A stretch of 64,000 nt of DNA from Rhodanobacter sp. Its GTDB lineage: Bacteria > Pseudomonadota > Gammaproteobacteria > Xanthomonadales > Rhodanobacteraceae. Below are positions 17,031 through 60,807 of this stretch, one piece after another; the stretch's first letter is position 1; each line of letters starts with the position of its first letter. The stretch lies in contig SCSE01000020.1 of assembly GCA_004298015.1 (NCBI GenBank), positions 1 through 64,000 of the forward strand, given 5' to 3'. The notes under the pieces were generated by a model. The model saw only the letters and a list, made by a program, of their open reading frames with translations. It had not been told where the DNA came from and did no database searches. The position numbers and the translations under genes are program-made.

Positions 17031-18290
17031 TCAGTTGGCCGGTGTTACATTGGCGCTTGCATAGACTTGATCGGCCCACTGCGTCGCTTCCAGATAGATC
17101 CCGGCCATTTTCTGGATGACCTGGGGACGTACCTGCTGGCTGTTGAGCTTGCCTGTTTCCCAGGCGCGGATCTGATCCAGCAATGAGCCGAATTGACCGC
17201 CCCGGCCGGTCAGCGCGTCGCTGATTTCCGGTACCAGGCGAAGGTGCGTCAGCAAGAAGCTCATGGGTGCGCACATCAGCGTATCGAGTAGCGAAAACAA
17301 GCCGACGGTGAAGGCTGTTTCTGGCTGTCCGTTGGGTACGCTTGCCGCCAGTTTTTCGCACATGTGGGCACGAATCAGTGCGGCACGGAGAAGTTCGGGA
17401 GGGCGGTCGTCCATGCTGCACAAGGACATGGTATCGATCCAGTTGCGCATGCGGGTGACGCCGAAGAAGATGGCTGCCTGCTGCACGGATTTCAATTGCC
17501 GTGGAAGTGCGAAGTAGGCGGAATTCACGCAGCTCAACAGTTTGAAGCTGAGAACCGCATCGTTGCGAATGATATCGCCTAGCTCCACCGGTCCCGGATT
17601 GGACTCCTGCAAGGTCCGCATCAGGCGTAGCATGCTCAGGCGGTTGGCCGCCAGAACCGGCACTGCCACGGGCTGGGGAATCAGCAGATAACGCCCCTGG
17701 ATGGCCTGGAAAGGCAGCTCCAGACAGCGCTCGTAGGTGGGGTGGTCGTTGACCTGACCGGCGATGACCGAGATGCCACGCGCGTGCAATTGCTCGCAAC
17801 GCTCCTGCAAGGTTTCCGGCGACAGCCCGCTGGCGTCCAGCCGGACGAATTGCACGGTCTGCAGGAGGGTCTCCAGAGACAGACTGCCATTGTGGTCAAG
17901 ATCAGCCAGGTCGAGCACGAATTGGCAGCCGCGCTGGGACATCAGCTGCAGTCGTTTCATCAGTTGCGGATCGTCTGCAACGTGCGGCTGCAACAGCAGG
18001 CCAAGGCGCGGCTGGTGCAACAGGATGTCGGAGTCTTCCGGCAGCAATTCAGCGGGCAGATTGAGGAAGGTGCGGTTGCCACGCACCAGACGTGTGAGTG
18101 CTCCGTCGGTAATCGTCGAAAGTACCCCCTGCAGCAGGTTTTGTTCGTCGCCTGGTTCGCGATGGAAGGTGATTTCGTAGGCGAAAAGCTGCCGTTCGCG
18201 GTCGAGCATCGGCACTCGCAGCACCGGTAGCGGTGGCGACGTGGCCGGTACGTTCGAGTCGGATGAGGCGGCGGCTTGGCGGTTGCTCAT
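17031..18290 (-). CDS. Degenerate EAL-HDOD signalling protein
   Basis: 419 residues from ATG 18290; the longer frame upstream runs into flgN. The N-terminal ~30-215 are an EAL-like domain whose signature is degraded: FAYEITFHRE replaces the ExL-type motif, and the metal-binding Asp pair and Lys are absent (VLDLADLDH, VRLDASG). The C-terminal ~225-410 are an HDOD domain (ELGDIIRNDAVLSFKLL, NSAYFALPRQLKSVQQA). Such proteins (the CdgJ/YuxH type) generally lack phosphodiesterase activity and act by binding partners, often affecting motility. It lies 94 bp downstream of flgN on the same strand, so it is probably transcribed from the sigma-28 flgM promoter. Confidence 0.85.
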   Translation of the reverse strand: MSNRQAAASSDSNVPATSPPLPVLRVPMLDRERQLFAYEITFHREPGDEQNLLQGVLSTITDGALTRLVRGNRTFLNLPAELLPEDSDILLHQPRLGLLLQPHVADDPQLMKRLQLMSQRGCQFVLDLADLDHNGSLSLETLLQTVQFVRLDASGLSPETLQERCEQLHARGISVIAGQVNDHPTYERCLELPFQAIQGRYLLIPQPVAVPVLAANRLSMLRLMRTLQESNPGPVELGDIIRNDAVLSFKLLSCVNSAYFALPRQLKSVQQAAIFFGVTRMRNWIDTMSLCSMDDRPPELLRAALIRAHMCEKLAASVPNGQPETAFTVGLFSLLDTLMCAPMSFLLTHLRLVPEISDALTGRGGQFGSLLDQIRAWETGKLNSQQVRPQVIQKMAGIYLEATQWADQVYASANVTPAN

Positions 18291-18384
18291 GGCGGTTAAT
18301 CGCAATAGATGTGGGGTTATGCCGGGACGTGTTTGGTATGGCGCGCGTTTGCCGCGTGAAATTTTTCCCGCCACGTCCTGTACG

Positions 18385-18831
18385 TCATGCTTCGGCCAGT
18401 ACCTGGGAACGCGCGTTGGCGCGCAGCTCACCGGTGCGACCATACAACTTGCTTTCGCCACTGTGACCGGTGAGAACGGCAAGCGCGTTGCGCACCTGCA
18501 GAAGCCGCTGGTTGACGACCGTGCCGTTGCGAAGATTCAGTTGTTGGCAGCGGTGCAGCGATTGCATCACCGCTGACCAGGCTGATTCCAGAGTGGTGCT
18601 GGGGGTATCCAGTTCTTTCTGGAACTGAAGTCGTTCCGTATCGAGCCGCTCCAATCGCAGCAGGACTTGCTGCTTTTGTGAGCCGGCGTGATTCAGCGCC
18701 TCGGTATCATTGCCATCCAGCGCCATGCGCTCGGATTCCAGTGCCTGCAGCAATTGCCCGACACATTGCTGCATCTCCGCCACTACGGCGGTCAGTGCGC
18801 TGTGGAGTTCCTGGCGGAGCGACTGACTCAT
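18385..18831 (-). CDS. flgN: FlgN: export chaperone for hook-associated proteins
   Basis: 148 residues, almost wholly helical with coiled-coil character, as expected for the cytoplasmic chaperone of FlgK and FlgL. ALESERMALDGNDTEALNHAGSQK-type spacing and a polar C-terminus fit FlgN. The start overlaps the flgM stop by 4 bp (ATGA), the canonical flgM-flgN coupling. Sequence motifs are weak in this family, so context carries much of the call. Confidence 0.87.
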   Translation of the reverse strand: MSQSLRQELHSALTAVVAEMQQCVGQLLQALESERMALDGNDTEALNHAGSQKQQVLLRLERLDTERLQFQKELDTPSTTLESAWSAVMQSLHRCQQLNLRNGTVVNQRLLQVRNALAVLTGHSGESKLYGRTGELRANARSQVLAEA

Positions 18832-19154
18832 GCTTTGCCCGCACCCCCCATTTGTTGTTCGAGTGCCAGCATGCGATTGGCGATTTTTCCGGGATTGATC
18901 TGATAGTTGCCGCTGGCCAGCGCCTGGCGCACCTGGTCCACGCGCTGCGAATCGATCGCCGCAGCGCTGTCTTGACGCGCGGCCTTTTGCATCGCGCGAG
19001 CGGAATCAGTCAACTTGACCTGATCGTCAGCTTTTGACGCATCGCCCGCTGAGCCAGTGGTGGACGGCGTTGCGGCGGCCGACGAAGCATTGCCCGAACC
19101 GCCGGTAGCCTGGGTGAATTTCGGCAAGCCATTGTTGATGATCGTGGTATTCAT
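18828..19154 (-). CDS. flgM: FlgM: anti-sigma-28 factor
   Basis: 108 residues. An unstructured Gly/Ser/Ala-rich N-terminal half precedes a conserved C-terminal part with VKLTDSARAMQKA, DSQRVDQVRQALASGNYQIN and PGKIANRMLALE, the FliA-binding helices. It holds FliA inactive until exported through the completed hook-basal body. A strong sigma-28 promoter 40 bp upstream (19194-19220) gives autoregulated feedback. flgN follows with overlapping codons. Confidence 0.95.
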   Translation of the reverse strand: MNTTIINNGLPKFTQATGGSGNASSAAATPSTTGSAGDASKADDQVKLTDSARAMQKAARQDSAAAIDSQRVDQVRQALASGNYQINPGKIANRMLALEQQMGGAGKA

Positions 19155-19193: not shown

Positions 19194-19220
19194 ATATCGG
19201 CAGCGACCGAGGGAACTTTA
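19194..19220 (-). promoter_or_regulatory. Sigma-28 (FliA) promoter of flgM-flgN
   Basis: On the minus strand TAAAGTTC, an 11-nt spacer, then GCCGATAT: 7/8 matches at each element to TAAAGTTT-N11-GCCGATAA. The flgM ATG lies 40 bp downstream of the -10. Confidence 0.87.
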
Positions 19221-19263: not shown

Positions 19264-19992
19264 TCAGGGCAGCGCGAGTACAACGCCGGGGGCGCTGACC
19301 ATCGCGTCGACAATCCTGCCTGAGCTGTCGTTGCGGACGCGCAGTCGCGCGCCGTTGTCGCCACTGCCAAGCGCCGTGCCCGTTGCACGCACCTCGATGC
19401 CGTTCATTCTGGCAATCAGCTGAACCTGGTCGCCGGCGCGAATCATGCGTCGTCCACCCAGCGCCGCAGGGGTCAGGACACTGCCGGCGGGCAGTGAGCG
19501 GGCCAGCGTCCGACCGTTGGCTTGCTCCAGGCTGGTGACGTAGCCATAGCCGAGCCGGGTGACATCGCGATCTTCGGCGTGCAGGTCGGTTTTGCGCACA
19601 CCGTCGCCGCGCAGCAGCGGTCGATTGGTAACCAGCACCTTGCGGAACAGCTGCAGTTGCAGTGGTACCCGAACCGACCATCCGCCGGCCTGCGGGCAGC
19701 GAACCTGGACGGTCATCCGGGAGGCGGCCGCGGCGTATGCAGCCACGCTGGCATGCAAGGGAACGGGGCAGGCGGTCAGCCGCAGGCGTTTGTCGAGCGG
19801 TGACGATTTGATCTCGACCCGGCTGCCGGGCAACGTGAAATGCTGGCGCAACGCTTTTACCGCGGCGCTGCGTACCTCGGAAAGAGCCTGGGTTGCTGCC
19901 GCCGGAGTGACGACAATGCAGGCGGCAAGCAGACAGCCGCCGACCAGCCAGGTTTGAGACCACCCAGTATGTCGTACGGAAGGCTTTTTCAT
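19264..19992 (-). CDS. flgA: FlgA: periplasmic chaperone for P-ring assembly
   Basis: 242 residues from ATG 19992. Residues 1-34 form a signal peptide ([19 protein letters not shown]). The remaining part has the SAF-like C-terminal domain typical of Flg[61 protein letters not shown]. It assists FlgI polymerisation. The start overlaps the chemoreceptor stop by 4 bp (ATGA), so it is coupled to that unusual upstream gene. Confidence 0.94.
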
Positions 19993-21293
19993 GCATCCGC
20001 CAGCAGGGTGCCGAGTTGTTTGAGTAGATCCTCGCGCCGCGATTCCATCTGTTGTGAAACCTGCCCCGCGCCCTCGAGTCGGCCTTCGCTCAGCAAGTCG
20101 ACGAAGCTGCGGCTTTGTTCGCACAGCTGTTTGCCGGATTCGACCAAGGCGATACCGGCCGCGTGCTGCGGATAAAGTGCAACCAACCGGCTGATGACAC
20201 GATTGAGTACATGCGTGTCGAACCAGCGCCGATCCAGTGCGGTCGGCTCCAGCAGAGCCAGCTCCATGGCCTGTCGCAGGCTTGAGGCAGCCTCGCGCAG
20301 GGTGAGGCTGAGACTTGCCGGATCGCGACCGCTCTCGCTTTCCAGCCAGTCCAGGCCGAGGCGGTGTGCCAGCAGCGCAGCCCGACTGACTGCCTCCGCC
20401 TGACGGCGTGCCTCCGTGCTGCGGCGTTGCAATGTACCCAGCAGGGCCTGAGATCCAGAGGCGCGGATACGCTGCTGATCATGTTGTTGTCGCAGGTGGC
20501 CGATTTGTCCAGTTGCCGCGCTCAACGCTTCACTGCCCTCGCGCAGCGCGGTTCCAGCCTGATCGAGGCCGGCCTGCGAACGTTCCAACTGGCGCAGTCC
20601 ATGTTGCACGTCGCCATCCAGCTGTCGCGAAAAGTCTCCGATTGAACCGGTGACGGCTTCGATCTCGGCCGTACTCAAAGCGGTTTTCTCGGCCAGCTGT
20701 TTGACTTCATCGGCGACCACGGCAAAGCCTCGTCCCGCTTCGCCGGCCCGCGCCGCTTCGATCGCGGCATTCAGGGCTACCAGATTGGTCTGGTGGGCGA
20801 TTTCCTGTACCACCCCCGTGAGCTTGCGGATCTGGGCGACTTGTTCGGCGAGCTTGCTCTGGTTGCGATTCATCGCCGCCATCGCGTTCCGCAGCAGGCG
20901 CAGCTGACCATCCAGCTCGCCGATCCGGCCCTCGCCAGCGCTTTCCGCGCAGGCAGCCCGGGTCAGGCTGGTGGCGAGTTGTTCCAGCAACGTCGAGATC
21001 CCGGCGCTGCCATCCGTCAAATGATCGACGTTTCCCCGACTGTCGGTGGCCGCTTGCTGCAGTGCGGTTTGTTCTCGCATCAGCTTTTCTGCGGTACCCA
21101 GGACCAGGCTTTGCTGCTCCAGGGTTTGCAGGGCCACGGCGTTGGGTGGCCGGCTGGCCACACGGTTGAGCAATGGGGCGATGGTGCTGGCGGCACGCGG
21201 GTATTTGCGTCGAAGCGCGGCCACACCTGCGTCGTCACCGTCGACGGCAGTCTGCACGAGGGCAGTCAGATGCTGATTCCAGATCAAGCTCAT
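19989..21293 (-). CDS. Soluble methyl-accepting chemotaxis-type receptor
   Basis: 434 residues from ATG 21293. No membrane segment is visible. The MCP hairpin tip is intact: [25 protein letters not shown]...[17 protein letters not shown]. Flanks are helical, with a non-standard C-terminal ~110-residue helical region ([16 protein letters not shown]). I choose 21293 because a sigma-54 promoter match on this strand (21368-21382) lies inside the longer alternative frame (start 21416) and would place that start upstream of transcription. It is coupled to flgA by a 4-bp overlap. It probably feeds cytoplasmic signals to the CheA/CheW array; the ligand is unknown. Confidence 0.85.
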
Positions 21294-21367
21294 GGGACGG
21301 ACGTCACCTTCGATGGTACGGGGTTGCTGAACCAGTGGATCGTCAGTATCCACGAAAACTTGAGCAA

Positions 21368-21382
21368 GCAATTCGCATGCCA
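21368..21382 (-). promoter_or_regulatory. Sigma-54 promoter of the chemoreceptor-flgA unit
   Basis: Minus-strand TGGCAT-GCGAA-TTGC followed by T. GG and GC are exactly 10 nt apart, close to TGGCAC-N5-TTGCW. The predicted transcript start lies about 65 bp upstream of ATG 21293. Confidence 0.75.
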
Positions 21383-21416
21383 CTGCCGGCGCTGCGTTCG
21401 CCATGGCCGCGGCCAC

Positions 21417-21443
21417 TCAAGCGTGCGCGGGGTCTGCCGATAC
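21417..21443 (+). promoter_or_regulatory. Sigma-28 promoter of cheV
   Basis: TCAAGCGT, an 11-nt spacer, then GCCGATAC (7/8 to the -10 GCCGATAA; -35 weaker at 5/8). It lies 50 bp upstream of the cheV ATG and back to back with the sigma-54 promoter on the other strand. Confidence 0.7.
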
Positions 21444-21492
21444 GCTGTGCACAGGACCTCTACGTGAGGTGTCGCATTTCGAAGGAATCCCG

Positions 21493-22434
21493 ATGGGCAG
21501 CGCGTTGCTGGAAAAAGTTGAATGGCACACCAGGCTGGCAGGGCACAATCGCGTGGCCATGCTGCTGTTTCGCCTCGGTGACAATCAACTTTTCGGTATC
21601 AACGTGTTCAAGGTCCGGGAGGTGCTCCGGCGAACTCCGCTGGAGCGGATGCCGGGCGCACACGAACTTCTGGCTGGAACCGGCGACTACCGGGGGCAAA
21701 CCATTCCGGTGATCGATCTTGGCGCCGCACTCGGCTATGCGCCGCTGCGCCAAGTGGAGTCTGCGCACATGATCGTCACGGAGTTCAGCCGTTCGGTCCA
21801 GGGTTTTCTGGTGGCAGAGCCGCAGCGCATCGTTCACTGCAGTGGTGAGTCGCTGGTGGCGCCGGCCGCTGCGCTGGGCTTCGGGCCCCGGGTCAACGCC
21901 GTGACGCGGGTTGACGGCGCGCTTGTTGCCATCGTCGATGTGGAGCATGTGCTGGCCCAGATCGATGCCGCGCCCGACGAGCTTTCGACGCGGCTGGTAC
22001 GTGATGCGGGTGACCGCACAACGGGTTTGCGTCGTGCGCTGGTGGCAGATGACTCGCTGATTGCGCGGCGACGCATCGTGAAGGTACTCCAGCAGATCGG
22101 AGTCGAGTGCGTGGTGGTCCAGGATGGTCGCGAAGCACTCGATCGCTTGCTGGAGCTGGCGGACGCACCGGAGGCGGAGCGCGTCAGTCTGTTGGTATCG
22201 GATATCGAGATGCCGCGCATGGATGGTTATGCACTGACCCGGGCCGTACGCGAAACACCCGCACTGAGGTCATTGAAGGTGTTGCTGCATAGTTCAATCA
22301 GCGGGATCTTCAACGAAGAGATGGTGAAAGAGGTCAATGCAGACAGTTTCGTGGCGAAATTCCAGCCCGATCTGCTGGCCAGGGCTGTGATGGACCTGCT
22401 GCCGGAGTCTGCGGCGGACGTCGAAAGAACGTAA
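21493..22434 (+). CDS. cheV: CheV: CheW-receiver fusion chemotaxis protein
   Basis: 313 residues from ATG 21493, preceded by GAAGGAA. The CheW domain spans ~10-165 (GDNQLFGINVFKVREVL, GDYRGQTIPVIDLG). The receiver spans ~180-310 with acidic residues ADD, phospho-acceptor Asp in LLVSDIEMPRMDG and a C-terminal Lys in FVAKFQPD. It couples receptors to CheA and can be phosphorylated to tune signalling. It sits immediately upstream of flgB, as in Pseudomonas and Xanthomonas. Confidence 0.95.
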   Translation: MGSALLEKVEWHTRLAGHNRVAMLLFRLGDNQLFGINVFKVREVLRRTPLERMPGAHELLAGTGDYRGQTIPVIDLGAALGYAPLRQVESAHMIVTEFSRSVQGFLVAEPQRIVHCSGESLVAPAAALGFGPRVNAVTRVDGALVAIVDVEHVLAQIDAAPDELSTRLVRDAGDRTTGLRRALVADDSLIARRRIVKVLQQIGVECVVVQDGREALDRLLELADAPEAERVSLLVSDIEMPRMDGYALTRAVRETPALRSLKVLLHSSISGIFNEEMVKEVNADSFVAKFQPDLLARAVMDLLPESAADVERT

Positions 22435-38240: not shown

Positions 38241-39668
38241 ATGCAGAAGTTTGATTTCCTGGTCATCGAGTCCGATGCGGGGCGGGCGGAGACCGTCATC
38301 ACGGCGCTCCATTTTCTGGGCTACAACCCGCTGTGCGGAGCGACCTGCACGTCAACCGATGCGTCAACCCACGGATGGCGTGCGGTATACATAGGAAATG
38401 TCGACGACCCGGAGGAGGCCGAGCGTCAATTCGAGCTGCTGGGTCCTGCAGCGGACCATCTGGCGATCGTTCTCGCCAGTGACTCGGCCTGGGTCGAGCG
38501 CTTCACGGCGACAACCTCCGCTTTCAGCCGGCGGGCAACCACGGTCAATTTTCCGTTGCGCTACGCGGACATGACGGAAGCTCTGCGCTATATCCATGGA
38601 CGCAAGGCCAGCGGTCAGCCCAACCGGGTACGTTTCGTCGGCCGCTCGGCACCGATAGCGCGGGTGAACGGACTGATCCGTCAGGTGGCACCGTTCGATT
38701 CGAGTGTGCTGGTGCTCGGTGAATCAGGCACCGGCAAGGAAATGGTCGCTCGCGCCATTCACGATCACTCGCCGCGTCATGACAAGCCATTCGTGGCGAT
38801 CAACTGTGGTGCGATTCCCGCCGAATTGCTGGAAAGCGAGCTGTTCGGGCACGAAAAGGGCGCATTCACCGGCGCAATCAGTGCACGCAAGGGCCGATTC
38901 GAGATGGCCGAGGGCGGTACGCTGTTTCTCGACGAAATCGGTGACATGAGTCTGCCCATGCAGGTGAAGCTGCTGCGCGTACTGCAGGAGCGGATGTTTG
39001 AGCGCGTCGGCGGAACGCGAACCCAGCGTTGCGACGTACGGATCATTGCGGCAACTCATCGAAATCTGGAGGAGTCCATTGCCGCGGGCCGTTTCCGCGA
39101 GGATTTGTATTACCGGATCAGCGTGTTTCCGCTGGAGCTCCCTTCGCTTCGGGAGCGACTGGAGGATGTGCCGGTGCTGGTTTCCGAGTTCAATCACCGG
39201 CTGTCGCGGCGGGGACTCGGCGTGGTCCGTTTCAGCCAGGCGGCGTTGCAGACGCTGCACGGTTACGCGTGGCCAGGCAACGTGCGTGAGTTGTCGAACC
39301 TGGTGGAGCGGCTTGCCATCCTGTTCCCTCATGCCGAGGTGAGGGTCAGCGATCTGCCGGCCAAATACCGCAGCCATGTGGCAAACGCCGAGATGCAGAT
39401 GGTTGGATTGCTGGGTGCGACCGATGAGCCAGCGCTGCTCGCGGGCAGTGACTTTCCCTGTTCGCCTGCTGACTCACTCGGCACCCTGCCGGTCGAGGGG
39501 CTGGACCTGAAGGATCATCTCGCGGAGATCGAGTCTGGCCTCATCAGGCAGGCACTCGATGCTACCGGCGGCGTGGTGGCGCATGCCGCCCGACTGCTGC
39601 GGATGCAACGCACAACGCTGGTCGAGAAGTTGCGCAAGTACGGCTTGCAGAGCGGTTTTCCGGCCTAG
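38241..39668 (+). CDS. fleQ: FleQ: sigma-54-dependent master flagellar activator
   Basis: 475 residues. The N-terminal FleQ domain (~1-115) lacks the phospho-acceptor of ordinary receivers. The AAA+ domain has Walker A GESGTGKE, the intact sigma-54 loop GAFTGA, Walker [13 protein letters not shown] and the R-finger region [10 protein letters not shown]. The C-terminal Fis-type helix-turn-helix is [20 protein letters not shown]. It would activate the -24/-12 promoters found before the chemoreceptor-flgA unit, flgB, fliE and fliL. No fleS/fleR pair follows. Confidence 0.95.
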
Positions 39669-46947: not shown

Positions 46948-47256
46948 CGGATGACGAGCCGAGCAGTATCCGGGCGATCGGGATTGCGTCGCCCGGGTGG
47001 GTGCGTGCACCGTCCTCGAGACTTGCCCCGATAGACCTCGACGGCGATCGGCCCGGCAACCGCCATGATGCCGGCGCGACGCCTGGGTGACGGGCGTCAA
47101 GAAAGTGCCGTGCCGCCAACGGCAACACCATGGCATCGCTGAAAATTCAGCAATAACAATACCTTCAGTTGATGGCACGCGGTTTGCATTTGACCTGTTT
47201 GCAGCCACCCGGCAACGGGGGTGCAGCAAACAAAATTCACGCAGATCGAGGTTGTC
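46948..47256. other. fliK-fliL intergenic region
   Basis: 309 bp with no gene. It contains the best sigma-54 promoter of the window (47173-47188), so it marks an operon boundary. Confidence 0.65.
47173..47188 (+). promoter_or_regulatory. Sigma-54 promoter of the fliL operon
   Basis: TGGCAC-GCGGT-TTGCA matches the -24/-12 consensus at every position. It lies 69 bp upstream of the fliL ATG. Confidence 0.88.
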
Positions 47257-47782: not shown

Positions 47783-48799
47783 ATGAGCGATCTACTTTCA
47801 CAAGACGAAATCGACGCACTGCTCAACGGTGTTGAAGGCGGCGATGTCGCGACGGGCAACGATGAGCCAGTACCGTCGGGTGAAGTGATGTCGTTCGATT
47901 TCACCCAGCAGGATCGGATCGTGCGGGGGCGTCTACCGACGCTGGAAATGGTCAATGACCGCTTTGCCCGATTCTTCCGCACCGGCGTATTCAATGTGCT
48001 GCGCAAGACCTGCGAGGTCTCGGTGCTGGGCGTGAAAATGGTCAAGTTCACCGAGTACGTGCACGGGCTGGCGCTGCCGAGCAATTTGAACCTGGTTCGC
48101 GTCAAACCCCTCCGCGGCACTGCCCTGGTGGTTTTCGAGCCGCGCCTGGTCTTTACCGTCATCGACAATTTTTTTGGTGGCGACGGTCGCTATCACGCTC
48201 GCATCGAGGGGCGTGATTTCACAGCCACTGAAAATCGCGTAATTCAGATCATGCTGGCCGAGTTGTTCAAGGCGATGGGTGAGGCATGGGCGCCGGTACT
48301 GGATCTCGAGTTTGAATACCTGAATTCGGAGATCAACCCCCAATTCGCCAACATTGTCAGCCCAACCGAAACCGTGGTGGTTTCGCGTTTTCAGGTCGAG
48401 ATTGACGGCATGGGCGGGGAGATTCACCTGACCATGCCCTATGCGATGGTCGAGCCGATCCGCACGTTGCTCGATGCCGGCGTGCAGAGTGACCGCGCCG
48501 ATCGCGATGGACGCTGGGCGGAGGCATTGCACGAGGAAATCCTGGATGCCGAAGTCGGGCTCAACTCCTTGTTGCTCGAAACTGAGCTGAGTCTCGGCGA
48601 CTTTCTCCATCTGCGGCCGGGCGACGTGCTTCCAGTGCAATTGCCCGAACTGGCTTTGGTCTACGCCGAGGATGTGCCGCTGTTCCGCGGTTACTTCGGT
48701 CAATCCAACGGACGCAATGCCGTTCGTTTTCATACTTTGGCGAACCGTCGCGAAGCGCGCTCGGTCAGCGACAACTTTATCGAGAACAAAGCACAATGA
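47783..48799 (+). CDS. fliM: FliM: motor switch protein
   Basis: 338 residues. The N-terminal CheY-binding peptide LLSQDEIDALL is intact. The middle CheC-like domain has EMVNDRFARFFRTGVFNVLR and the C-terminal SpoA domain LRPGDVLPVQLPELALVYAE. It sets rotation sense in the C ring. Its ATG overlaps a six-codon frame coupled to the fliL stop. Confidence 0.97.
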   Translation: MSDLLSQDEIDALLNGVEGGDVATGNDEPVPSGEVMSFDFTQQDRIVRGRLPTLEMVNDRFARFFRTGVFNVLRKTCEVSVLGVKMVKFTEYVHGLALPSNLNLVRVKPLRGTALVVFEPRLVFTVIDNFFGGDGRYHARIEGRDFTATENRVIQIMLAELFKAMGEAWAPVLDLEFEYLNSEINPQFANIVSPTETVVVSRFQVEIDGMGGEIHLTMPYAMVEPIRTLLDAGVQSDRADRDGRWAEALHEEILDAEVGLNSLLLETELSLGDFLHLRPGDVLPVQLPELALVYAEDVPLFRGYFGQSNGRNAVRFHTLANRREARSVSDNFIENKAQ

Positions 48800-56154: not shown

Positions 56155-57092
56155 GCGGCGTACTTGCGATGGATCAGGCTGGGGGATTGCGAAACATGTT
56201 GTCGGGAATCATCGGGCATGGCGAGCCGGCGCCGGTATCGGGACATCAGGCCAGCAGCCTTGCGGCACCCGCAAAGAAGCCGGGATGCCGGGCGATCGCG
56301 GTGGCCGGTGGCAAGGGTGGGGTCGGCAAGAGTACGGTCGCGGTCAACCTGGGCATGGCGTTGTCGATGAGCGGCCACGAGGTAATGCTGCTCGATGCCG
56401 ACATGGGGTTGGCCAATGTCGACGTCCTGCTGGGGTTGACGCCATCGAGGCACATCGGGCACATGCTCGACGGCCAATGCTCGCTGGAAGATCTGTTGCT
56501 GCAGGCTCCCCACGGCTTGCAGGTCATTCCTGCCGGCTCCGGGGCCCGTCGGCTGGCCAGACTGGACAATGGCGAGCACGCTGCTGTCATCCGCGCTTTT
56601 GATGACCTTGCCCGGCCACCGCAATTCCTGCTGGTGGATACGGCTGCGGGGCTGGCTGACAGCGTGGCGATGTTTGCCGCTGCCGCCGACGACCTGGTGC
56701 TGGTGGTATGCGATGAGCCCGCCTCGCTCACAGACGCTTACGCCTTGATCAAGGTCCTCAGCCGAGATTTCGGGGTGCGCCGCTTTCGCATGGTGGCGAA
56801 CATGGTGCGCAATGAAGGGGAGGCTCGTCAGCTGCATCTGAAGCTTTCGCGGGTCAGCGATCGCTTCCTCGACGTGGTGATCGATTTCATGGGTTGGGTC
56901 CCGCATGACGAACGTCTGCGGCAGGCAATCCGCCAGCAGCGTGCGGTAATGGATCTGTGGCCTTCGAGCCGTTCTTCATTGGCATTCAAGAAATTGGCGG
57001 GTGCGGTCGATAAATGGACGGAACCCGAACGAACAGGCCTCGACCGGATCGCTTTCTTTGGTGACCGGGTGCCATCGACGGCAGGGTACTGA
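56151..57092 (+). CDS. fleN: FleN (FlhG): MinD-like regulator of flagellar number
   Basis: 313 residues. The deviant Walker A is VAGGKGGVGKSTVAVNLG, with LLDADMGLANVDVLLGL and the C-terminal part LAFKKLAGAVDKW. The N-terminal MDQAGGLRNML resembles the DQA-type activation motif of FlhG. It restrains FleQ and FlhF to limit polar flagella to one. ATG 56169 would remove six residues. Confidence 0.95.
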   Translation: MSGVLAMDQAGGLRNMLSGIIGHGEPAPVSGHQASSLAAPAKKPGCRAIAVAGGKGGVGKSTVAVNLGMALSMSGHEVMLLDADMGLANVDVLLGLTPSRHIGHMLDGQCSLEDLLLQAPHGLQVIPAGSGARRLARLDNGEHAAVIRAFDDLARPPQFLLVDTAAGLADSVAMFAAAADDLVLVVCDEPASLTDAYALIKVLSRDFGVRRFRMVANMVRNEGEARQLHLKLSRVSDRFLDVVIDFMGWVPHDERLRQAIRQQRAVMDLWPSSRSSLAFKKLAGAVDKWTEPERTGLDRIAFFGDRVPSTAGY

Positions 57093-57093
57093 G

Positions 57094-57822
57094 ATGAGTG
57101 TGGCTTCGGAATATCTACAACATTCTCGCGACAGTGCCGATGAACTGGTACGTCGGCACGCACCGTTGGTGCGGCGGATCGCCTATCACTTGATGGGGCG
57201 GCTGCCGGCCAGCGTCGACGTGGGCGATCTGATGCAGTCGGGCATGATCGGGCTGCTTGAGGCTGCACGCCATTACGCCAACGATCGCGGGGCGAGTTTC
57301 GAGACATACGCGGGTATCCGTATTCGCGGCGCGATGCTCGACGAGCTGCGCCGCACCGACTGGACGCCCCGCTCGGTGCATCGCAAAACCCGTGAGGTGG
57401 CCGAGGTCGTTCACCAGATCGAAACCGAGACCGGAGCTGAGGCAAGCGATGCCGAGATCATGCGCCGGCTGGGTATCGGTGCCGACGAATACCACCAGGT
57501 GCTCGCCGACGCGGCTTGCGTCCGGCTGCTCAGTCTTACCGCGTCGGACGACAACGAGGAAGACACCATCCTGAACGTCGCCGACCAGGCGGGGCTGAGT
57601 CCGCAGGAGAGCATCGAGCGTGACGGGATGCGCGAGGCGCTGAGCGAGGCGATCGGCAGCTTGCCCGAGCGGGAACAGTTGGTGATGTCGTTGTATTACG
57701 AGCAGGAGTTGAATTTGAAGGAAATAGGCGCCGTGCTGGGTGTGAGTGAGTCGAGGATTTGCCAGATACACGGCAAAGCCGTTATCCGCCTGCGTGCAAG
57801 GCTGACCGACTGGTGTGCCTGA
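57094..57822 (+). CDS. fliA: FliA: sigma-28 factor
   Basis: 242 residues from ATG 57094. Region 2 is VDVGDLMQSGMIGLLEAARH and FETYAGIRIRGAMLDELRRT. Region 3 begins DWTPRSVHRKTREVAEVVHQ. Region 4 is LPEREQLVMSLYYEQELNLK and ESRICQIHGKAVIRLRARL. It directs transcription of fliC, cheV and flgM through the elements found here, and FlgM inhibits it. Confidence 0.97.
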   Translation: MSVASEYLQHSRDSADELVRRHAPLVRRIAYHLMGRLPASVDVGDLMQSGMIGLLEAARHYANDRGASFETYAGIRIRGAMLDELRRTDWTPRSVHRKTREVAEVVHQIETETGAEASDAEIMRRLGIGADEYHQVLADAACVRLLSLTASDDNEEDTILNVADQAGLSPQESIERDGMREALSEAIGSLPEREQLVMSLYYEQELNLKEIGAVLGVSESRICQIHGKAVIRLRARLTDWCA

Positions 57823-58298: not shown

Positions 58299-58936
58299 AT
58301 ACCGTATCCCCCACCCTGAGTGGCGAGGCGTTGCCGCCGGAGTTGCAGGCGCTGTTTGCCAGTACCGATGGCGCCGCCTTCGAGCAGGCACTTGACGGAT
58401 TGCTGCGTCAGCGTGAACAACGGCTGTTTCGCGCACTGGGCGTGCTTGCGCGTGATCTTCACAATGCGATGCGCAGGATCGGCGGCGAGCTCTCGGTGGA
58501 AGGGGCTCCCGCCACGATGGCCGATGCGAGGCAGGATCTTCAGGAGGTGCTGGAAATGAGCGCCAAGGCGGCGCATCGCAGTCTGGATTTTGCCGAGCGG
58601 ATGCGTCCGGAAACGGAGTCGATGGCGCGCCATGCCAGCGAGGTACTGGCCAGCAGTGCCGGCAACGAGGCCGGCGCTGCGTTGGCACGTCAGGCCGGTG
58701 ATTTTGCCGCGAGTTGTCGTGAGGGGTTGGCTGACATGGTGCTTGCCCAATCGTGGCAGGACCTGTCTGGCCAACGCATCAAGAAGGTGGTGAGCTTCAT
58801 CGGCAGCGTGGAGAGTTCGCTGCTCGAGCTGGTGCGCCTGACCGGGGCACTGGCCGGTGGCGAGGCGCCGGTCGCGGCCGCCAAGATATCCAGCCAGGAC
58901 GAGGCAGACCGGTTGCTCAGCGAATTCGGATTCTGA
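58295..58936 (+). CDS. cheZ: CheZ: CheY phosphatase
   Basis: 213 residues, long helical hairpin. The active-site segment is [19 protein letters not shown], with the Asp and Gln (D-x-S-G-Q) that promote CheY-P dephosphorylation. The C-terminal [12 protein letters not shown] is the CheY-binding tail. The start overlaps cheY by 4 bp. Confidence 0.95.
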
Positions 58937-58938
58937 GC

Positions 58939-60807
58939 GTGAATCCGGAGCTTGACAGCGAGCTGCGCGATGATTTCCTGGTGGAGGCGGGAGAGCTGTT
59001 GCAGAACCTTGGCGAGCAGTTGGTCGGCCTGGAATCCTCGCCGGGCGACGCCGAGCTGTTGAACGCGGTATTTCGCGCGTTCCATACGGTCAAGGGTGGC
59101 GCTGGCTTCATGGCGATCGAGCCGATGGTCTTGCTGTGTCATCACGCCGAGGATCTGCTCAACGAGGCCAGAAACGGTCACGTGGCGCTCAACGCCACGT
59201 ATATGGATGCACTGCTCGAGACGCTCGATCTCCTGAATGGGATGATGGATGCGCTGAACGCCAATGCCGCCTTGCAGATGCCGCCACAAGCTTTGTTGCA
59301 GCGACTCTTGCCGGCAGCGGCTGTGGCGATGCCGGCTGCCCCGGCAGCCGCTGCGGCAACCGGTGGCGCAGGGCTGATCGACGACAGCGAATTCGAGTCG
59401 TTGCTGGACACGCTCTACGGCACCGGTGCGCCCGGTGTCACGGAGGCCGCACCGCTGCCCACGGTCGGGCCGCCGGTGAGCGCTCCGATCGGGGATGACG
59501 AATTCGAGGCATTGCTGGACAGTCTGCACGGGGCGGGTGGGCAACCCGGGGCCGTGCCGACCAAGGTGCCCCCGAAGCCGGCTGCGAGTCCGGCGCCCGA
59601 GCCGGCACCTGCGCCGGCGCGCCATGCGGTGGCGGAAACCACGGTGCGGGTGGATACCGGCCGACTCGACGTACTGGTGAATCGTGCCGGCGAATTGGTA
59701 TTGGTGCGAAACCGGATGCTCAGTCTGGCGCTTCGCGATGGAGACGAGGCGCTGTTGAACGCGGCCAATGAGCTGGGCCGGGTCACCGATGAACTGCAGA
59801 ACGCGGTCATGAGTATGCGGATGCAGCCGGTGGGGCGATTGTTTCAGCGCTTTCCCCGAATCGTCCGCGATCTGGCCCGTCAGCTCGGCAAGGACGTGGA
59901 ACTGGTACTGGAAGGCGAGGGTACCGATCTGGATCGCAGCCTGGTCGAAGCGCTGGCAGATCCCTTGATTCATCTGCTGCGCAACGCGCTCGATCACGGT
60001 GTGGAAATGCCGGATGAGCGCGAACGCGACGGCAAGTCGCGCAAGGGGCGGGTGAAGCTGTCGGCGAGTCAGCGCGGAGAGCGCATCGTGATTTCGGTGA
60101 GCGACGACGGCAAGGGCATGGACCCGGACGTGCTGCGGCGGAAGGCGCTCGAAAAGGGGGTGATCGACGAGGCTCAGGCGGCTCGTCTCAGTGAGACCGA
60201 GTGCTATGAGTTGATCTTCCGTCCGGGCTTCAGTACCGCCGCGGCAATCTCGGATATTTCCGGGCGCGGTGTCGGCATGGACGTGGTGAAGACGCGTGTC
60301 GCCGAGCTGGGAGGTACCTTGAGGGTGACCTCGAAGCTTGGCAGCGGAAGCGAGCTTGAGCTGTCAGTGCCGCTGACGCTGGCGATTCTGAGAGTCCTGA
60401 TGGTACGCGTCGGATCTCGTCTTTTCGCATTGCCGTTGGGCAATGTCGAGGAGGTCTTCGAGTTGACCGGGGGGCAGGATCACATGCTCGATGGTCGATT
60501 GGTGGCCAACCATCGAGGTCGTGCGCTGGCATTGGCCAACCTGGCCGGCTGGGCCGATGCCGCGCCGGTGGCCGGGCGGCATGTGGTGGTGCTGCACATC
60601 GGTCATCTGCGCATCGGCTGCCTGGTGCATGCGGTGCTCGGCCGCGAGGATGTCATCATCAAGCCCCTCGGTCACCTGTTCGCGGGCGCACCGGGTATTG
60701 CGGGCGCCACGGTCACCGGTGACGGGCGTCTCGCCCTGGTGCTGGATCTGGCGGGCCTGGCCGATGCGCACGGGGAGTTGCTCCCTTCGCTGCAACTGGC
60801 CGGCTGA
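58939..60807 (+). CDS. cheA: CheA: chemotaxis histidine kinase
   Basis: 622 residues from GTG 58939. The upstream continuation lies inside cheZ. The HPt domain carries His49 (FRAFHTVKGGAGFM). A long linker (~110-235) has two copies of a D-x-E-F-E-x-L-L-D-x-L-x-G motif and a Pro/Ala tract. Dimerisation comes next (TGRLDVLVNRAGELVLVRNR). The kinase has N-box HLLRNALDHGVE, G1 DDGKGMDP, the F-box FRPGFSTA and G2 GRGVGMDVVK. A CheW-like regulatory domain ends it. I see no clear CheY-binding P2 domain. Confidence 0.95.
   Translation: MNPELDSELRDDFLVEAGELLQNLGEQLVGLESSPGDAELLNAVFRAFHTVKGGAGFMAIEPMVLLCHHAEDLLNEARNGHVALNATYMDALLETLDLLNGMMDALNANAALQMPPQALLQRLLPAAAVAMPAAPAAAAATGGAGLIDDSEFESLLDTLYGTGAPGVTEAAPLPTVGPPVSAPIGDDEFEALLDSLHGAGGQPGAVPTKVPPKPAASPAPEPAPAPARHAVAETTVRVDTGRLDVLVNRAGELVLVRNRMLSLALRDGDEALLNAANELGRVTDELQNAVMSMRMQPVGRLFQRFPRIVRDLARQLGKDVELVLEGEGTDLDRSLVEALADPLIHLLRNALDHGVEMPDERERDGKSRKGRVKLSASQRGERIVISVSDDGKGMDPDVLRRKALEKGVIDEAQAARLSETECYELIFRPGFSTAAAISDISGRGVGMDVVKTRVAELGGTLRVTSKLGSGSELELSVPLTLAILRVLMVRVGSRLFALPLGNVEEVFELTGGQDHMLDGRLVANHRGRALALANLAGWADAAPVAGRHVVVLHIGHLRIGCLVHAVLGREDVIIKPLGHLFAGAPGIAGATVTGDGRLALVLDLAGLADAHGELLPSLQLAG

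Follow-up and report, generated by a model that had tools for sequence, protein, structure and literature searches.

We find by sequence comparison that the soluble chemoreceptor encoded directly before flgA in Rhodanobacter sp. (assembly GCA_004298015.1) has its origin among soluble, TlpD-like receptors that carry CZB as their C-terminal domain, and that the zinc site of this domain is gone across the whole family Rhodanobacteraceae. The window, i.e., the whole stretch of DNA analysed, comprises positions 1 to 64,000 of contig SCSE01000020.1 (64,000 nucleotides). The zinc site is the defining feature of CZB receptors, which are believed to sense redox state through zinc. We consider it reasonably probable (roughly 0.6) that the protein is a CheA-coupled cytoplasmic receptor of TlpD-like ancestry, in which the zinc input has been replaced by another. 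The initial annotation of this DNA contained neither the CZB-derived domain nor the lost zinc site, and the family-wide zinc-less, CZB-derived receptor is the finding added here. The features on which the argument turns are as follows:

19989..21293, minus strand: soluble chemoreceptor gene, 434 amino acids, ATG start at 21293
20472..20885, minus strand: MCPsignal domain with hairpin tip, residues 137-274 (Pfam, E 5e-31)
19992..20321, minus strand: predicted C-terminal CZB-derived helical bundle without zinc ligands, residues 325-434 (alignment, profiles, model)
20214..20246, minus strand: conserved stretch P350-T360, P-x3-D-x-R-W-F-D-T, occupying the place of the CZB Cys segment
19989..19992, minus strand: overlap of receptor stop and flgA start, ATGA (sequence)
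19264..19992, minus strand: flgA, P-ring chaperone, 242 amino acids (TIGR03170, E 9e-34)
21493..22434, plus strand: cheV (CheW and receiver domains), divergent neighbour of the receptor gene

That the protein is a membrane-free chemoreceptor had already been proposed and was confirmed by a Pfam scan, in which MCPsignal was the sole family above the cut-off and no PAS domain was found, as well as by a simple hydropathy scan with 0 membrane segments over threshold (maximum 1.31), which rules out an ordinary membrane receptor. PF00015 was matched in 33/33 members of the receptor family, and residues 162-184 of the hairpin tip are invariant across 33 sequences. AlphaFold predicted a long hairpin (residues 51-320) followed by a helical bundle (residues 325-433) with a predicted local distance difference test score (pLDDT) of 87.5 overall, and for the C-terminal part alone a confident four-helix bundle (pLDDT 93); a fold search with the whole receptor model retrieved chemoreceptor coiled coils. 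Regarding the extent of the gene, the frame is indeed open up to 21416, as the longer initial assignment implied, but the start was placed at ATG 21293, because Met1 does not vary among 33 relatives and a predicted sigma-54 site lies upstream of this ATG.

The descent from CZB receptors is concluded from a tree of the receptor core, synteny, and comparison of C-terminal profiles. The C-terminal profile of the family gave weak matches (E up to 0.01) in ten genomes of the class besides the source genome. Four of those ten, from two other families, carry a soluble receptor directly before flgA (that of G601 being cut by its contig); among the remaining six, one (G504) carries its soluble CZB receptor at another place, and in five the fetched stretch contained no match to a receptor, flgA, or cheV. 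The receptors before flgA in those other families end in a canonical CZB domain, and five of these relatives score PF13682 above cut-off (E 3e-13 to 4e-18). When a profile of the relatives was run against 321 class genomes, nine matched at E 5e-121 or better, with 2e-80 for the following one. Of these nine, six adjoin flgA (G571, G681, G705, G562, G673, and G552) and three do not (G504, G586, and G441). In total, flgA-linked canonical CZB receptors occur in four families of the class outside the Rhodanobacteraceae (six complete and the partial one of G601). In G586 and G441 (loci L268 and L269, family f37), cheV comes directly after the flgA-unlinked CZB receptor gene in the same orientation, and a membrane receptor gene lies alongside as well.

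In the tree, which was built on the receptor core rather than the C-terminal domain and rooted at its midpoint, the Rhodanobacteraceae receptors form a clade (100/100) that is joined by a pair of flgA-linked CZB receptors from a single further family (97/93); one step further out, all five flgA-linked CZB receptors and the unlinked L182 are included (98/93). Furthermore, when the C-terminal profile was compared with 19 CZB domains, to which this lineage contributed six, it reached a score of 35.7 in the last two helices. Reversing the profile gave 11.2; 30 shuffles of the columns did not exceed 14.8, and segments from elsewhere in the receptor did not exceed 14.2. When only the four close CZB relatives were used, the match had an E of 8e-7 over 141 columns.

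The zinc site itself is absent from the aligned family. At the three ligand His columns, His occurs in 0, 0, and 4 of 96 family proteins, and the Cys-bearing segment is deleted in all 96, the alignment near this deletion being uncertain by a few residues, as another profile alignment places it differently. The CZB Trp column is retained in 92/96. Correspondingly, the ordered 3His/1Cys motif was found in 0/96 family proteins vs 6/6 CZB relatives, and the same counts were obtained for C.[LF]G.[WYL], a looser form of CX(L/F)GXW(Y/L); the six relatives in this comparison had been selected partly by the zinc motif. Throughout the C-terminal part, no column holds His or Cys in as many as 90% of the 96 proteins, and 27 of them lack any Cys there. 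A canonical CZB domain in the window receptor is ruled out by the missing zinc ligands together with the Pfam result described below; moreover, PF13682 was not found in the source genome at E up to 0.001. Seven positions are conserved in at least 90 of the 96 proteins (R333, E334, P350, D354, R356, W357, and D359). Three of them are inherited: in the CZB relatives, R333 is aligned with K, R356 in most cases with K, and W357 with W, so that R-W within P350-T360 corresponds to K/R-W of CZB, while E334, P350, and D359 are conserved specifically in the family. Patterns for the two halves of P350-T360 are found in 95/96 and 86/96 proteins. Given this combination of inherited and family-specific conserved positions, the domain looks changed rather than decaying.

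Full-length orthologs of the receptor (E up to 1e-30) were identified in 105/197 Rhodanobacteraceae genomes and 20/26 genera of the family, and in 25/35 congeners. Comparison with flgA in the same 197 genomes (E up to 1e-20) revealed both genes in 104, the receptor with flgA in two pieces in 1 (G178, with the flgA pieces beside the receptor), a strong flgA only in 3 (G076, G120, and G148), and neither in 89, among which 9 are matched weakly by the flgA model. A second, weaker-scoring flgA was noticed in some family genomes (G076, G125:C33, and G170:C23), the copy in G076 being without an adjoining receptor match. Among the matches listed for 250 genomes of the order (E up to 1e-40), no orthologs came from outside the family.

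Gene order was compared across 69 orthologous loci (one of 70 was dropped), which also served as the promoter comparison set. flgA lies downstream of the receptor in 67/69 loci, the contigs of the other 2 ending within the receptor, and cheV lies upstream in 66/69. The three exceptions, each from a different Dyella species (L095, L114, and L119), have no cheV in the 5 kb upstream and retain the receptor, flgA, and the sigma-54 motif. Translational coupling to flgA, as initially annotated, is suggested by the ATGA overlap of receptor stop and flgA start and remains a prediction drawn from that overlap: across 68 loci, window included, 62 junctions overlap by 4 nucleotides (59 by automatic scoring, 3 read off the printed junction), 5 overlap by 1 nucleotide, and 1 has a gap of 1 nucleotide.

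For the intergenic region, the initial annotation had proposed a sigma-54 (class II) promoter for the receptor-flgA unit and, within ~40 bp on the other strand, a sigma-28 (class III) promoter for cheV. All promoters are predictions made with consensus patterns. The following sites and regulator genes are relevant here:

21367..21382, minus strand: predicted sigma-54 promoter of receptor-flgA, perfect motif TGGCATGCGAATTGCT (consensus match)
21417-21442, plus strand: predicted sigma-28 promoter of cheV, TCAA-N15-GCCGATA, no mismatch
19195..19220, minus strand: predicted sigma-28 promoter of flgM, between flgA and flgM, no mismatch
38241..39668, plus strand: FleQ-like sigma-54 activator (PF06490, PF00158)
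57001..57822, plus strand: fliA (sigma-28; NF005413), true start inside the given frame

As predictions, both promoters and their spacing are upheld, the edges of the two motifs lying 34 bp apart. Class II control of the receptor-flgA unit is supported, since the motif is present in 69/69 loci, the source genome contains an rpoN gene, and the FleQ-like and FliA genes lie in the window. The TGGCA and TTGC elements are invariant in all 69 loci, with 28 variants of the five spacer bases between them, and the site lies 64-85 bp ahead of the receptor start in 66/69 loci (outliers at 44, 44, and 145; for L128 and L129, the distance was taken to an extrapolated start). Together, the 69 loci contain 97 perfect sigma-54 motifs in 1.46 million strand-bases, 69 of which are the receptor sites. 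The window alone contains 3 perfect motifs vs a mean of 0.31 expected, with 1/100 shuffles as high. One of the two other motifs falls within a coding frame; a perfect motif at 47173-47188 (plus strand) lies upstream of a putative fliM at 47783 (assigned by eye), at the expected place of fliL. Motif conservation and the co-occurrence of the receptor with flgA rule out a chance motif or a single-genome accident. Among seven other parsable receptor genes of the source genome, the sigma-54 score never exceeds 12/15, and three have a sigma-28 score of at least 14.

Class III control of cheV is likewise supported as a prediction. The cheV and flgM sites are the only two mismatch-free sigma-28 matches in the window, and the best sigma-28-like site facing cheV scores at least 14/16 in 55 of the 66 cheV-bearing loci and 12-13 in the other 11. 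Scores of 12-13 alone could be due to chance, since the three loci without cheV reach 13, 10, and 10. flgM may be expressed in two ways, through read-through of the sigma-54 unit as well as from a late promoter of its own.

These promoter classes look inherited and ordinary for their genes, given that passages on Pseudomonas describe flgA as class II (sigma-54 and FleQ) and che genes as FliA-dependent (PMC8036289), and that FleQ is reported to activate the flgA and cheV3 promoters in P. putida (PMC5026340). Unlike the window, the flgA passages of these two papers mention no receptor gene. Furthermore, cheV lies beside flgA on the opposite strand in 17 of the 30 best-scoring flgA loci of the class, and none of these 30 loci had a receptor match in the fetched flank. 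Since the promoter classes are ordinary and the divergent cheV occurs without a receptor in those loci, it is probable that the receptor gene was inserted downstream of a promoter that already existed. The flgA-linked canonical CZB receptors resemble the window receptor in lying directly before flgA on the same strand and in sharing its architecture; the complete ones have a divergent cheV in 4/6 cases and a sigma-54-like site (14 or 15 of 15) in 5/6, G552 being the exception. Unlike the window receptor, they keep the zinc site and score Pfam CZB above cut-off.

A similar comparison can be made with characterized CZB receptors. Like TlpD of Helicobacter pylori and other soluble CZB receptors, the window receptor is predicted to be cytoplasmic, and it combines an N-terminal region, an MCP coiled coil, and a C-terminal four-helix bundle with the Trp column (PMC12871147, PMC8262984). 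Unlike TlpD, whose reported zinc ligands are H315, C340, H368, and H372, with W345 as an anchor (PMC12871147), it has neither zinc ligands nor CX(L/F)GXW(Y/L), and it is encoded in an flgA operon with a sigma-54 motif. In the survey of PMC8262984, CZB domains were identified by 3His/1Cys together with CX(L/F)GXW(Y/L), other sequences being reviewed by hand, and surveys based on zinc motifs may miss receptors of the present kind. Our literature search, which covered titles and the beginnings of abstracts and few subscription journals, found among the papers listed no account of a receptor beside flgA or of a zinc-less CZB domain, nor, by title, a paper on this gene among those on Rhodanobacter chemotaxis.

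The course of events that we favor would begin with the insertion of a soluble CZB receptor gene between the older, divergently oriented promoters of cheV and flgA, where it would have taken over the sigma-54 promoter of the flgA unit. The CZB zinc site would then have been lost in the Rhodanobacteraceae, with the bundle, the Trp column, and the CheA-facing tip being kept, as the alignments indicate. The present receptor would sit in CheA-CheW/CheV arrays and modulate kinase activity, its input being an intracellular cue other than zinc or a protein partner at P350-T360. Sensing of the cytoplasmic state, as initially suggested, fits the TlpD-like descent, and adaptation of the receptor is possible: a methylation-site-like pattern lies about 76 residues ahead of the tip in 4/7 family proteins scanned, including that of the window. 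Expressed from the flgA promoter, the receptor would be present by the time of basal-body assembly, which keeps this part of the initial annotation plausible. Its further claim, that the receptor precedes the late chemotaxis genes, is weakened, as CheA may be expressed early too: cheZ and cheA follow fliA and putative flhF and flhG (read by eye), these genes share a strand, and a scan of limited sensitivity that allowed up to 1 mismatch detected no sigma-28 match in the fliA-cheZ-cheA stretch. With its almost invariable position at flgA and its conserved sigma-54 motif, the receptor gene is well suited to the study of a receptor whose expression would be timed with the building of the basal body, and a lineage that keeps the CZB domain without metal is a natural test of the other roles of the bundle, be it localization, partner binding, or a new ligand.

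One such role leads to a different explanation, namely that the receptor is structural, with the CZB bundle serving only polar localization and dimerization, and that it seeds or tunes a polar array without sensing a ligand. A metal-free domain could keep localization and lose the switch, since the last 45 residues of TlpD are reported to be required for polar localization (PMC13001251) and since zinc-bound TlpD is believed to be kinase-ON and the apo form kinase-OFF (PMC12871147). It also fits a structural role that the family's strongest CZB match falls on the last two helices (C-terminal alignment columns 55-113) and that the metal switch has disappeared, and early expression would suit an array seed. 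However, the conservation of both halves of P350-T360 goes beyond the apparent need of a passive bundle, and we regard a purely structural role as unlikely. A further and still more doubtful extension of the favored reading is that the zinc/redox domain became a metal-independent reader of the flagellar pole or basal body through a partner at P350-T360, in which case co-expression with flgA would let arrays form at, and report on, new flagella.

It is improbable, too, that the protein regulates flagellar expression or assembly, in the manner of Tls or as an assembly checkpoint, rather than acting as a practising chemotaxis receptor. Such a role would agree with the operon shared with flgA, the proximity of flgM, and the co-occurrence with flgA, and it has a precedent in Tls of E. 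coli, likewise a chemoreceptor-like protein tied to flagellar biology, which is reported to repress flagellar genes by sequestering their master activator FlhDC (PMC12623472). The CheA-facing tip, however, is invariant in 33 sequences, contrary to what a loss of kinase coupling would predict, and the two unlinked f37 relatives adjoin cheV and a membrane receptor gene. For the monitoring of assembly that the initial annotation had considered, we found nothing in support, and it is speculation.

Returning to the favored reading of a CheA-coupled receptor of TlpD-like ancestry, several observations weigh against it. Pfam CZB is unmatched by the window receptor at E up to 1, and CZB is not among the best 25 of 105 Pfam families for 33 members. 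The tree is midpoint-rooted, with a long family stem (1.46) and several rows of odd composition, and it does not unite the flgA-linked CZB rows in one clade. The score of 35.7 spans only 59 columns, and the 141-column match involves four sequences. In fold searches, the C-terminal model matched generic four-helix bundles, and the CZB entries 3t9o and 4h54 were not among the best 50 rows of either search; against solved structures, the C-terminal profile matched designed helical proteins and unrelated ones, and the CZB profile of the relatives matched both 3t9o and 4h54. The methylation-like pattern is missing at its place in 3/7 proteins scanned. Finally, receptor-flgA linkage is not general, since among 229 class genomes, taken in one draw, CZB lay 399-447 bp ahead of the FlgA domain in at least 4 of the 124 with flgA. 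The failure of Pfam CZB, the non-specific fold search, a tree resting on the receptor core, and a best profile match limited to two helices would also suit an unrelated helical bundle on the same receptor core, but this we consider very improbable, given a profile match far above shuffles and reversals, the Trp column kept in nearly all family proteins, and CZB relatives that share domain order, similar length, a related N-terminal region, and the position before flgA.

The remaining genes of the flagellar and chemotaxis regions considered here are as follows:

18828..19154, minus strand: flgM, anti-sigma-28 factor (family profile match)
18385..18831, minus strand: flgN (family profile match)
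58753..60807, plus strand: cheA open frame, true start inside the given frame

A frame for an HDOD-domain protein with a weak EAL match (17031-18482, minus strand) overlaps the end of flgN on the same strand. The source genome (3.9 Mb) contains ten matches to the receptor (MCP) domain, and one locus elsewhere in it (L010) encodes a receptor-like protein of 396 amino acids with no long sensor domain and two predicted membrane segments. The nearest named relative is a Rhodanobacter, with 83% identity.

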